Source: Alishewanella agri BL06
GTDB taxonomy: Bacteria > Pseudomonadota > Gammaproteobacteria > Enterobacterales > Alteromonadaceae
NCBI RefSeq assembly: GCF_000272005.1
Contig: NZ_AKKU01000015.1
Location: forward strand, 1 to 64,000
Direction: 5' to 3'
Length of the DNA stretch: 64,000 nt
The position numbers and the translations under genes were made by a program. Below are positions 37,010 through 41,281 of the stretch, one piece after another (the first letter of the stretch is position 1; every line of letters begins with the position of its first letter). The notes beneath the pieces were generated by a model that saw nothing but the letters and a program-made list of their open reading frames with translations, ran no database searches and was not told the DNA's origin.

Positions 37010-37471
37010 ATGGACATTAGAAAAATTAAAAAATTGATCGAACTGCTGGAAGAATCAGGCATTTCTGAGCTGGAAATTACCGAGGGTGAAGAGTCGGTAC
37101 GTATCAGCCGTAATGGCCCGGCGCAGCACTATGCCCCAGCGCCGATGCATTATGCTGCCCCGGCTCCGGCACCTGTTGCCGCTCCTGCCGCCGCACCTGT
37201 GGCCGCAGCTCCAGCCGCTGCCCAACCTGCGGTGTCTGGTCACGTGGTTAAATCACCAATGGTCGGCTCTTTCTATCGCGCCGCTTCGCCAACCTCGAAA
37301 AACTTTGTTGAAGTCGGCCAGAGCGTGAAAGTCGGTGATACGCTCTGTATCGTCGAAGCGATGAAGATGATGAACCAAATCCAGTCTGACAAGGCCGGGG
37401 TGGTAAAAGAAATTCTGGTTGAAAACGGCGAGCCGGTAGAATTCGATCAACCGCTATTTATTATCGAATAA
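37010..37471 (+). CDS. accB: Biotin carboxyl carrier protein of acetyl-CoA carboxylase
   Basis: Carries biotin between the carboxylase and transferase sites of acetyl-CoA carboxylase. The 153-residue protein has an N-terminal [16 protein letters not shown] helix and an Ala/Pro-rich flexible linker (about 41-74). The biotinyl domain has EAMKMMN (116-122) with biotinylated Lys119. It lies 18 bases after aroQ and 15 before accC. In E. coli AccB represses its own operon; I saw no specific site here. Confidence 0.98.
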
Positions 37472-37486
37472 GATAAGGACGCTCTG

Positions 37487-38830
37487 ATGCTGGAAAAAGT
37501 CCTGATCGCAAACCGAGGCGAAATTGCGCTGCGCATTCTGCGCGCCTGCAAAGAGCTCGGGATCAAGACGGTAGCCGTGCACTCCACGGTTGACCGTAAT
37601 TTAAAGCACGTGCTGCTGGCCGATGAAACTATCTGTATCGGCCCGGCACCGTCACCACAAAGCTATTTAAATATCCCCGCGCTGATTGCGGCGGCCGAAG
37701 TGACTAATGCCCAGGCCATCCACCCGGGTTACGGTTTTTTAGCCGAGCGCGCTGACTTTGCGCAGCAGGTTGAAGAAAGCGGCCTGGTCTTTATCGGCCC
37801 GCACCCGGATTCGATCCGGCTGATGGGTGATAAGGTTTCTGCCATTGAAGCGATGAAAAAAGCCGGCGTACCCTGTGTACCGGGCTCAGACGGCGCAGTC
37901 GGCGATGATGCAGCAACCAATAAAGCGATCGCGAAACGCATTGGTTACCCTATTATCGTTAAGGCTGCCGGTGGCGGTGGTGGCCGCGGTATGCGCGTGG
38001 TGCGTAGCGAAGAAGAACTGGTTAGCTCAATTGAAATGACCAAGGCCGAAGCCAAGGCCGCCTTTGGTAATGACATGGTGTATATGGAGAAATTCCTGGA
38101 AAACCCACGTCATATCGAAATTCAGGTGCTGGCGGATGGTCAGGGCAATGCGATTCACTTAGGTGAACGTGACTGTTCAATGCAGCGCCGCCATCAAAAA
38201 GTGGTGGAAGAAGCACCGGCACCAGGCATTACACCAGAGCTGCGTGCCTTTATCGGTGGTCGTTGTGTCGATGCCTGTAAGGTGATGAACTACCGCGGCG
38301 CCGGTACTTTCGAGTTCCTGTTTGAAAACGGCGAATTCTTCTTTATCGAGATGAATACCCGCATTCAGGTAGAACACCCGGTTACTGAGATGATCACCGG
38401 CGTCGACCTGATTAAAGAGCAGCTACGCATTGCCTCTGGCATGCCTCTGACCATTAAGCAGGAAGATATCGTGATCCGTGGCCATGCGGTGGAATGCCGG
38501 ATTAACGCCGAAGATCCGGTGAGCTTTATTCCGTCACCAGGTAAAATCACCCGCTTCCATCCACCAGGTGGTAACGGCATCCGTTGGGATTCGCATATCT
38601 ATGCCGATTACAGCGTACCGCCAAACTACGACTCCATGGTTGGCAAGCTGATTACCTACGGTGAGAGCCGTGATATCGCCATCGCCCGGATGCGTAACGC
38701 ACTGGACGAGTTACTGGTTGAGGGCATTAAAACCAATATCCCGCTGCATAAAGACATTATGCGCGATGCCGGTTTCTGCCAAGGCGGCACCAATATCCAC
38801 TATCTGGAAAAGAAACTGGGTATTAAGTAA
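37487..38830 (+). CDS. accC: Biotin carboxylase of acetyl-CoA carboxylase
   Basis: ATP-grasp enzyme that carboxylates biotin on AccB, the first step of fatty-acid synthesis. The 447-residue protein has [19 protein letters not shown] (8-26), the glycine-rich ATP loop [31 protein letters not shown] and [13 protein letters not shown]. The gene is intact, but the sequence just downstream, which reads as its terminator, is split by an IS4-family insertion (38869-40299). Confidence 0.98.
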
Positions 38831-38849: not shown

Positions 38850-38868
38850 AAAAGGAGCCTGCATGGCT
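38850..38868 (+). other. Left half of the split accBC terminator
   Basis: AAAAGGAGCC-TGCAT-GGCT (38850-38868) plus the sequence right of the IS from 40310 (CC and seven Ts) would form a 10-bp stem with a U-run if the IS and one target copy were removed. The left copy now keeps only the AGCC/GGCT part of the stem and has lost its U-run. Confidence 0.8.
38859..38868. repeat. Target-site duplication, left copy
   Basis: CTGCATGGCT directly before the left inverted repeat; identical to 40300-40309. Ten bases fits the IS4-family range. Confidence 0.92.
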
Positions 38869-38901
38869 TAATGCCGATCAGTTAATAGCTTTTCAGATCG
38901 G

Positions 38902-38929
38902 TTGACCGATCCAGTAGTTGGTATATAAA
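38902..38929 (+). promoter_or_regulatory. Internal promoter of the IS transposase
   Basis: TTGACC (38902-38907) and TATAAA (38924-38929) are spaced 16 bases apart. The -35 lies in the palindrome GATCGGTTGACCGATC (38896-38911). The predicted start, near 38936, falls inside the left arm of the hairpin at 38931-38954. Confidence 0.65.
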
Positions 38930-38930
38930 G

Positions 38931-38961
38931 GCCTACAGAATGAACTCTGTAGGCTTTTTTT
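38931..38961 (+). terminator. IS-internal terminator abutting the transposase ATG
   Basis: A 9-bp stem GCCTACAGA/TCTGTAGGC (38931-38939 with 38946-38954), six-base loop and seven Ts ending directly at the ATG (38962). The only Shine-Dalgarno-like bases (TAGG) lie in the 3' arm. It would stop read-through from accC and also hide the ribosome site. Confidence 0.85.
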
Positions 38962-40290
38962 ATGCATATTAGCCAAGCGCTGGAAACCGTTTTAGTAAAT
39001 AGTCATACCGTTGACTTTGATAGTTTGTCAGATGTTTTAGACCCTGGACTTATTGAAACAGGGCTTAGCATTGCCGGTGTATCCACGATCAGAACTCGCC
39101 GTCTTCCCATGGAGCAAATGGTATGGGCAGTACTGGGTATGGCCCTGTTTCGTAATATGTCTATAAAACAGCTTGTATCTCAGATGGATATCTTGTTGCC
39201 AGGCAAAGTACCTTATGTTGCGCCAAGTGCCGTCGTACAGGCCAGGCAGCGTTTAGGCTACGAAGCGATAGAGCATATATTTAATCTCACCGCTGGACAT
39301 TGGAATCAGCAAGCTGACCATCCCAATTGGTGCGGATTAACGCTATTAGGTGTGGATGGTGTCGTGTTTCGCACCGAAGATACACCCGAGAATAGTGCCG
39401 CATTCGCCAGAACGAAGTCGCACACGGGAGAAGCCTGCTACCCACAAATTCGAATGGTATGTCAGATGGAGTTAACGAGCCATTTGCTCACCGCCAGCCG
39501 GTTTGACAGTGTTGATACTAATGAGATGATTTTAGCTGAGGACCTAATCCCTCATACCAGTGATAACTCTCTGACAATATTCGATAAGGGGTTTTACTCA
39601 CTGGGTTTGCTTTATAAGTGGCAAAGCACAGGTGAACAACGCCATTGGTTACTGCCATTGAAGAAGCATACACAGTATGAAGTCATTCGGTCATTGGGCA
39701 AACAGGATCAACTGGTACGACTGACAACGACGCCCCAATCACGCAAGAAATTCGCAGACTTACCGCATACGATTGAAGCGAGATTGCTGACTAAAACCAT
39801 TAAAGACAAAGAAGTCAAAATACTCTGCTCTTTGGTAGACCCGATGCGTTTTCCTGCCGCTGACATTGTTGATTTATACTCGACCCGCTGGGAAATCGAA
39901 CTGGGCTTCAGGGAAATAAAGCAGTCAATGTTGCAGAATACCTACACACTGCGCTCAAGAAAACCAGATATGGTGAAACAAGAGCTGTGGGGAGTATTGC
40001 TGGCCTATAACTTGATCCGGTATCAGATGGTACTTATGGCTGCCTCGTTAGGAAAAGATATCACGCCAAGTCAGCTGAGCTTCAAAGAATCAGCAAGTTA
40101 CATCGTATTCCAGTTAGCGACATTACCCTATGTTGCGCCAGGAAGAGTCCCACGGGTAGTGATGAATATTACCGAAATGGCGTCTTACTTCTTACTACCT
40201 GGACGACGAGAGCGATGTTACCCACGGTGTATAAAGTCGAGTAAGCAGAAATACCCTGTTAGAAAGAAAAATGCCGGTCAGCTTAACTGA
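38962..40290 (+). CDS. IS4-family transposase
   Basis: A 442-residue DDE transposase. The catalytic triad is Asp132 ([13 protein letters not shown]), Asp208 (TIFDKGFYS) and Glu313. The last sits in a canonical YREK motif, Tyr306-x2-Arg309-x3-Glu313-x6-Lys320. An N-terminal domain of the IS4 type precedes it. The ORF runs into the right inverted repeat: its last codons and TGA stop (40288-40290) lie within the palindromic right end. It is intact. Translation from ATG 38962 seems to depend on transcripts that start within the upstream hairpin. Confidence 0.95.
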
Positions 40291-40299
40291 CCGGCATTA
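40271..40299. repeat. Palindromic right end of the IS
   Basis: ATGCCGGTCAG and CTGACCGGCAT face each other around CTTAA (40271-40297), so the right terminal repeat is doubled into a hairpin. The left end has only a single repeat plus a different palindrome. Confidence 0.8.
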
Positions 40300-40309
40300 C
40301 TGCATGGCT
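40300..40309. repeat. Target-site duplication, right copy
   Basis: CTGCATGGCT directly after the right inverted repeat, identical to 38859-38868; followed by CC and seven Ts from the original terminator. Confidence 0.92.
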
Positions 40310-40399
40310 CCTTTTTTTATTTTCCTGGTTTCGTGACGAGCAAAATCCGGCGTTTGGGTATACAATATCGCCCCTTTATTGGCGAGCTGAGGTTTTATC

Positions 40400-41281
40400 A
40401 TGCCCTGGATCCAACTGCGGGTCACCACCACTGAGAAAAAAGCCGAGCAGGTCAGCGATATGCTGATGAGCTGGGGCGCCCAGGCGGTAACCTTTCTTGA
40501 TGCCAAAGATACGCCAATTTATGAGCCGCTGCCGGGGGAAATCCTGTACTGGGAAAATACCGTGGTAATGGGCTTATTTGATGCTGAACACCCGATGCAA
40601 AAAGTGCTGAGGCAGCTAGAAAGCACGGCGCTGTTTAAAGAAGGCCTCAGCTATAAGCTGGAACAGCTGGAAGATAAAGACTGGGAACGCGAGTGGATGG
40701 ATAACTTCCACCCGATTAAATTTGGCCAGCGTCTTTGGGTTTGCCCCAGTTGGCGCGATATTCCTGACCCCACTGCCGTTAACGTGCTGCTGGATCCGGG
40801 CCTGGCCTTTGGTACCGGTACCCACCCTACCACCGCACTCTGTATGCAATGGCTGGATCAGTATATCGAACCGGCACAAACCGTGGTCGATTTTGGCTGC
40901 GGCTCCGGCATTCTCGGCATTGCCGCGCTGAAACTTGGCGCCAGTCGGGTGGTCGGTATCGATATTGACCCGCAGGCGATTATGGCTTCCAAAGCCAACG
41001 CCGAGCGTAATGGCGTAGCCGGGAAAATTGAATTGTATTTACCCAAAGATCAACCGAGCTTACAGGCCGATGTGGTGGTGGCCAATATCCTGGCCGGCCC
41101 GTTGGCGGAACTCTCTGCCATTATCAGCGCCTATGTTAAGCCGGGCGGTTTACTGGCGTTATCCGGTATTCTGGAGAGTCAGGCACAAAGCGTCATGGCG
41201 GCCTATGCCAGCGAATTTGAGTTTGACCCTATCGCAGTACAGGAAGAATGGGTGCGCTTAAGCGCACGAAAAATCGCCTGA
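40400..41281 (+). CDS. prmA: Ribosomal protein L11 methyltransferase
   Basis: SAM-dependent enzyme that trimethylates L11. The 293-residue protein has an N-terminal substrate-recognition domain, [14 protein letters not shown] (132-145), the SAM motif [12 protein letters not shown] (163-174) and the NILAGPL catalytic-loop segment. It has GAGG seven bases before the ATG. In E. coli panF sits between accC and prmA; here only the IS does. Confidence 0.97.

Follow-up and report, generated by a model that had tools for sequence, protein, structure and literature searches.

An IS4-subgroup insertion sequence in the accC-prmA terminator of Alishewanella agri BL06 and the probable targeting of bidirectional intrinsic terminators by its relatives

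An insertion sequence (IS) of the IS4 subgroup splits the terminator behind accC in Alishewanella agri BL06, and a comparison of 126 distinct insertion sites of related elements indicates that the transposase of this subgroup very probably picks bidirectional intrinsic terminators as its target. The site would be recognised at the DNA level and dyad-symmetrically, and the host terminator would be replaced by those of the IS. As read from the nucleotide sequences, the preferred site consists of an A-tract, a G+C-rich palindrome and a T-tract, with a duplication of 9-15 bp centred on the dyad and approximately 3 bp of stem left outside it on each side; the targets are predicted to be intrinsic terminators from their structure and U-run. 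The window, i.e., the whole stretch of DNA that was analysed, comprises 64,000 nucleotides, and the following features define the insertion locus.

37010-37471: accB
37487-38830, + strand: accC, the owner of the disrupted terminator (open reading frame; named by eye and from the earlier reading)
38850-38859, + strand: left stem arm AAAAGGAGCC of the split accC terminator (arms of 10 nt, fully complementary)
38859-38868, + strand: left copy of the target-site duplication, CTGCATGGCT (direct-repeat detection)
38869-40299, + strand: IS4-subgroup insertion sequence, 1431 bp, with ends TAATGCCGATCAGTTAA and TTAACTGACCGGCATTA
38962-40290, + strand: transposase, 442 aa, with D132, D208 and E313, and Y306-R309-E313-K320 (single open reading frame of the IS)
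40300-40309, + strand: right copy of the target-site duplication, CTGCATGGCT (direct-repeat detection)
40306-40318, + strand: right stem arm GGCTCC and T-run of the split accC terminator
40400-41281, + strand: prmA, the downstream gene (open reading frame; named from the earlier reading)

The IS begins with TAATGCCGATCAG and ends with GGCATTA, and the duplication that flanks it is perfect over 10 bp, as an earlier note on this DNA had stated. Joining the flanks without the IS yields AAAAGGAGCC-TGCAT-GGCTCCTTTTTTT, a terminator with a 10-bp stem located 3′ of accC. Its arms, AAAAGGAGCC and GGCTCCTTTT (40306-40315), are complementary throughout, and seven T residues occupy positions 40312-40318 in the right flank. 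The rebuilt site of 28 nt was predicted to fold at -15.3 kcal/mol (z -5.3), and 0 of 200 dinucleotide shuffles folded as well. The repeat and the rebuilt stem with its T-run bear out the proposal that an IS4-family element lies inside the accBC terminator. The duplicated target had been described as the loop and one arm; it actually spans the 5-nt loop with 1 nt of stem to its left and 4 nt of stem to its right, and is approximately centred on the dyad, with an offset of 1.5 bp that is the joint second largest among 109 strong sites (see below).

The 442-aa open reading frame matches Pfam Nterm_IS4 and DDE_Tnp_1, both above the curated cut-off. According to De Palmenaer et al. 2008 (PMC2266710), the IS4 subgroup is defined by transposase motifs, a single open reading frame, a length of 1400-1650 bp, the terminal sequences and direct repeats of 10-13 bp. 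The motifs D(60-110)D(100-150)E and Y(2)R(3)E(6)K are both present in the transposase, the element has one open reading frame and a length within this range, its end TAATGCCGATCAGTTAA can be aligned with -AATR--------WTW, and its copies in the same genome are flanked by duplications of 10 or 11 bp. Judged by the same source, the element resembles IS4, the Escherichia coli type element, and its subgroup in ends, length, DDE and YREK motifs, and duplications of 10-13 bp. An AlphaFold2 model of the transposase (pLDDT 80.5) returned the Tn5 transposase as the top Foldseek match (E 1e-9, with a TM of only ~0.44), and a sequence-profile search with the transposase matched no PDB chain. Elements of the IS4 subgroup move by cut-and-paste. 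Other identities were ruled out: an IS1182-family (IS1272-like) element by the presence of a duplication and the completeness of the rebuilt hairpin, a member of the IS231 subgroup by ends that read TAATG and not CAT, and a REP-targeting IS by stems that differ among the five sites in the same genome.

The A. agri genome contains five copies of the IS, which are identical over the whole element and therefore point to recent spread. All five are located within terminator-type hairpins. Each rebuilt site comprises an A-run, a G+C stem, a loop of 3-5 nt and the second stem arm, and the duplication includes the loop. A right-hand T-run is present at three of the five sites; the other two have only the A-run, which would place the terminator on the other strand. 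In the comparison within the genus, which covered 31 genomes including A. agri BL06 and used the 5′ part of prmA as the anchor, prmA was matched in 30 genomes. Among the 30 loci read, accC was directly upstream of prmA in 23, and the gap contained a hairpin with a T-run in every one of these (23/23), confirming the expectation that IS-free relatives carry a terminator at this place. The terminator sequence AAAGGCCGCNNTTGCGGCCTTTTT was found in 16 of the 23 IS-free gaps. The remaining seven loci were the A. agri window with its IS, five with other upstream DNA, and L160/L301 (contig C15 of genome G207, positions 1-352), from another species of the genus. There, a related IS in the opposite orientation abuts the accC-prmA terminator with its left end, and the contig starts inside this related IS. 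This locus is apparently a second, independent hit of the same terminator.

The 126 pooled sites were called by inverted ends and duplication only, blind to hairpins, and came from capped searches, one of which kept 80 of 519 relatives, while no genome search contributed more than 30 loci. Sites with an identical key (10 + duplication + 10) were counted once, and one mismatch was tolerated in duplications of at least 10 bp, which concerned three rows (L047, L059 and L081). Hairpins were scored with our own measure and counted up to 3 bp away from the duplication centre; several thresholds are reported because the threshold of 16 was chosen after the scores were seen. A score of at least 16 was reached by 109 of the 126 sites versus 102 of 5000 positions drawn at random from the same flanks, with corresponding values of 112/126 versus 250/5000 at a threshold of 14 and 96/126 versus 26/5000 at a threshold of 20. 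Together with the five copies in the A. agri genome, these counts support the earlier claim that the IS recognises terminator hairpins, and they indicate that the other copies do not lie at random sites. In 98 of the 109 strong sites, dyad and duplication centre were no more than 0.5 bp apart, and in 76 they coincided exactly. No clear orientation bias emerged (A-run longer in 51, T-run longer in 35, equal in 23). The hosts included Alteromonadaceae, Psychromonas, Shewanella, Aeromonas, Pseudomonas, Pseudoalteromonas, Pectobacterium, Kluyvera and a Legionellaceae MAG. Distant relatives also obeyed the hairpin rule, both those with 36-38% identity (L134, L136 and L137) and those retrieved with a profile E of ~1e-114 to 1e-118 (L282, L284-L287, L289 and L292-L295); L235, another distant relative, was weak, with a score of 10. 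A class-wide search with PF13006 gave a match in 2 of 274 genomes and did not help in calling sites. As a control, sites of IS256-family elements (PF00872) in the same bacterial family were identified from their inverted repeats together with a duplication of 8 bp. Among the 13 called from 30 loci, a small sample, a score of at least 16 was found in 0/13 and both arms in 0/13.

Twenty-four loci in which both sides had candidate ends but a clean duplication was missing were inspected and left out of the scoring; among these, L186 repeats L110, L092 repeats L241, and a few are cut by contig ends. Further loci lacking a duplication or an open reading frame call were excluded. Two pairs of copies without duplications, L239/L241 (G219) and L280/L281 (G671), have reciprocal flanks, and swapping the halves rebuilds terminators, an arrangement that, judged from the flanks, would be as expected of recombination between IS copies.

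Outside the duplication, base frequencies revealed A-tracts at positions -4 to -8 and T-tracts at +4 to +8. These arms (A 0.79-0.95 at -4 to -7 and T 0.75-0.92 at +4 to +7) are the strongest sequence feature of the target, and the AAA-N-TTT spacing has a median N of 18 (121 of 143 rows with both runs). The logo of the 126 sites contains the A/T arms and a G+C bias, and the stem sequence is not common to the sites. Background hairpins were taken from 462,510 bp of the A. agri genome and the sites from many genomes, which weakens the exact ratios and hardly the direction of the comparison: neither arm was present in 1412 of 1702 background hairpins with a score of at least 16, and both were missing from 1 of the 109 strong sites. 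Since palindrome and arms are each over-represented, the target is composed as in bidirectional intrinsic terminators. The earlier suggestion that the hairpin is the target holds for the palindrome, which is indeed over-represented, but hairpins alone are an insufficient description, as the A-tract and T-tract arms are over-represented too.

The geometry of the cut partly follows the size and parity of the target hairpin. On each side of the duplication, usually 2-4 nt of stem are left over, with a mode of 3. Duplications range from 9 to 15 bp (1 site with 9, 29 with 10, 42 with 11, 36 with 12, 11 with 13, 6 with 14 and 1 with 15 bp), and 118 of the 126 are 10-13 bp long. Their parity equals that of the loop in 84 of 109 sites (p 6e-9). 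Duplication length increases with the distance between the A- and T-tracts, with a slope of 0.44 across all sites (n=116) and of 0.41 within the same element (p 7e-5, n=59, 13 elements). A slope of ~0.4 falls between a rigid stagger (0) and a cut anchored purely at the arms (1). In the explanation that we prefer, the transposase would recognise the site at the DNA level, by its dyad symmetry and A/T arms, and each strand cut would be placed partly from its own arm, allowing the stagger to bend to the target. The split host terminator would also be functionally replaced by inward-facing terminators of the IS, which could make the insertion nearly neutral and also shield the transposase gene from read-through. 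A more ambitious version extends this to the whole DDE subgroup as structure-guided: it would strike the dyad of bidirectional terminators, the hairpin (cruciform or pre-bent) would set the stagger, and the element would swap in its own terminators, so that the insertion is almost silent for the host. We hold this version only tentatively, at somewhat less than even likelihood.

Two models of how the DNA is read, by cruciform extrusion or by bending, are finer versions of DNA-level recognition and compatible with it. In the first, negative supercoiling drives extrusion of the palindrome, and each of the two resulting DNA hairpins is attacked on its 5′ arm by one IS end, ~3 bp above the four-way junction, with the duplication corresponding to the hairpin minus ~6 bp. 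For IS1272, a model with a cruciform has been drawn (PMC5678879), and both the 2-4 nt of stem on either side of the duplication and the variation of duplication length with arm distance inside one element agree with it. Hairpins without A/T arms are avoided, however, and extrusion alone thus does not account for the choice of target; the observed slope is 0.4 and not 1, and we regard this model as possible but rather doubtful. In the second, only sequence is read, in the form of A-tract and T-tract arms ~18-20 bp apart on bent DNA, and the hairpin is a by-product of such arms often belonging to terminators. The arms are the strongest sequence feature, with a spacing that agrees, and among the 17 sites (of 126) that scored below 16, five kept both arms, 10 kept one and two kept neither, i.e., at least one arm persisted in 15 of 17. 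IS231A, also of the IS4 family, is cited for target DNA bending. Nevertheless, when both arms were required together with G+C at at least 10 of 14 stem positions, a hairpin was present in 155 of 538 background placements versus 73 of 76 sites, and scores below 10 occurred in 291 of 538 versus 2 of 76. Duplication parity also tracks the loop. A reading of sequence alone is accordingly unlikely in our judgement.

Recruitment of the transposase to an RNA hairpin or to paused RNA polymerase would account for the resemblance of the targets to terminators and for the reuse of particular terminators in E. coli (see below). An RNA terminator, however, needs only the U-run, yet among hairpins scoring at least 22 both arms were found in 79 of 89 sites versus 31 of 190 background hairpins, and dyad-centred cuts in both orientations fit DNA symmetry, making this coupling to transcription quite improbable. 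Random insertion with persistence only in harmless terminators would agree with the sites being mostly outside long open reading frames (a frame of at least 100 aa spans 37 of 123 sites versus 634 of 699 controls), but it is hardly credible and was rejected, since selection is not expected to bring the cut to within half a base pair of the dyad and since the few IS256-family sites, scored in the same way, gave no strong hairpin.

The pooled set includes an E. coli IS4 cluster; 1753 of 5426 genomes of this species contained a match. A hairpin score of at least 16 was obtained in 13 of 19 loci read (L329 repeats L327), which is not a random-sample rate, as the loci were hand-picked from 60 spread rows with a preference for those without the name insG. 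The terminators between bamD and raiA (L327, L329, L333 and L338) and between adhE and tdk (L328, L331 and L336) had each received repeated insertions, and both orientations were seen at both. The earlier statement that this target choice spares genes stands as a tendency and not as a rule, because annotated genes (bcsG, ydcO, ygeA, yicI and fiu) were interrupted in 5 of the 19 loci; of these sites, the one in fiu is itself a palindrome resembling a terminator (score 22). The insG site of K-12 lacks a hairpin (score 3.5). When prophage copies were included, 15 of 25 distinct sites in the cluster, some of which share a terminator, scored at least 16 and 10 scored below it. Compared with 105 of the other 117 sites (of the 126), the type element is thus looser, and the 10 lower-scoring sites suggest that some elements can make do with the arms. 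Among the longest duplications are those of IS4 copies in the prophage contigs L124, L127 and L131 (15, 14 and 14 bp).

The data support a description of the IS as a palindrome-targeting DDE transposon with intrinsic terminators as natural targets, and this interpretation was widened to the IS4 subgroup. Strong target-arm specificity has been described for the subgroup (PMC2266710); the dyad centring, the palindrome enrichment and the flexible stagger were measured in the present analysis. The word "terminator" has no occurrence in the main text of that paper, and a literature search, with most subscription papers outside its coverage, found no statement of terminator targeting by the IS4 subgroup. 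According to PMC4923244 and PMC5678879, IS1272/TnSha1 of the IS1182 family inserts into hairpins, several of them terminators confirmed by RNA-seq, in both orientations. The present IS shares the insertion into hairpins or terminators and the use of both orientations, whereas IS1272 makes no duplication and partly deletes or replaces the stem-loop, in contrast to the dyad-centred duplication of 9-15 bp and the A/T arms observed here. ISRm22, of the IS4Sa subgroup, inserts at the symmetry axis of REP palindromes (Tobes and Pareja 2006, PMC1525189). It and other REP-targeting ISs resemble the present IS in inserting at the palindrome axis, ISRm22 also in having an IS4-family transposase; their target is a repeated REP sequence, whereas the terminators hit here vary in sequence. 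IS231A is comparable in target DNA bending and in having a target consensus, but belongs to another subgroup and has CAT ends. Its target consensus is reportedly palindromic. The older IS4 literature is said to give the target consensus AAAN20TTT, and a paper of 1984 reportedly placed IS4 in the pheST attenuator; this work comes close to terminator targeting. Group IIC introns are mobile elements that settle at intrinsic terminators as well, but these are retroelements and the present IS is a DDE transposon.

A general target-arm specificity would thereby become a concrete target, the intrinsic terminator struck at its dyad, which offers a straightforward explanation for the low harm caused by such ISs: the choice of terminators lets them spread with genes mostly spared. 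The reading of DNA structure by a DDE transposase becomes directly testable with designed palindromes, and terminator targeting suggests a safe-landing insertion tool.

The proposed replacement of the host terminator rests on the following signals inside the IS.

38902-38929, + strand: candidate transposase promoter, TTGACC-16-TATAAA (10/12 consensus bases by eye)
38927-38958, + strand: internal terminator-like hairpin with T-run, directly 5′ of the transposase ATG (fold -22.8 kcal/mol, z -5.2)
40270-40298, - strand: right-end hairpin with a T-rich stretch next to it on this strand, a predicted terminator (fold and consensus scan)

The hairpin at 38927-38958 opposes transcription coming in from the left, and the right-end hairpin (40298-40270) that from the right; the earlier claim that the IS has its own terminator thus holds by structure. 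The + strand transcript of the IS has no canonical terminator before prmA, its T-run being located 13 nt behind the hairpin. Neither the candidate promoter nor the 38927-38958 hairpin was among the + strand calls of the consensus scan, in the case of the promoter because the scan accepts only -10 elements that end in T. The predicted start of the candidate promoter, ~38936, is within the 5′ arm of this hairpin, and a transcript starting at 38934 folds poorly (-9.8 kcal/mol, z -0.15). Incoming transcripts would form the hairpin and thereby also sequester the ribosome-binding region, whereas RNA made from the candidate promoter would begin inside the 5′ arm and probably fold poorly. This arrangement is in line with the proposal, made in PMC2965389, that terminators before transposase genes block expression driven from outside. 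Among 94 distinct IS ends, a left terminator was found in 88, a right terminator in 74 and both in 70, with 6 and 20 failing the left and right tests, respectively. As most have their own left and right terminators, the host terminator may be replaced by inward-facing ones, and the annotation of terminators adjoining such ISs should record that they are split and may have been replaced.

The right end of the IS (40265-40299), with its A-run and palindrome, itself resembles the preferred target. Stand-alone right-end palindromes with a T-rich tail were observed at L022:1502-1530, L032:1514-1542 and L033:1501-1529, with no transposase match (tblastn, E 1e-3). These are possibly left-over ends that serve as host terminators, or they may reflect the origin of the IS end.
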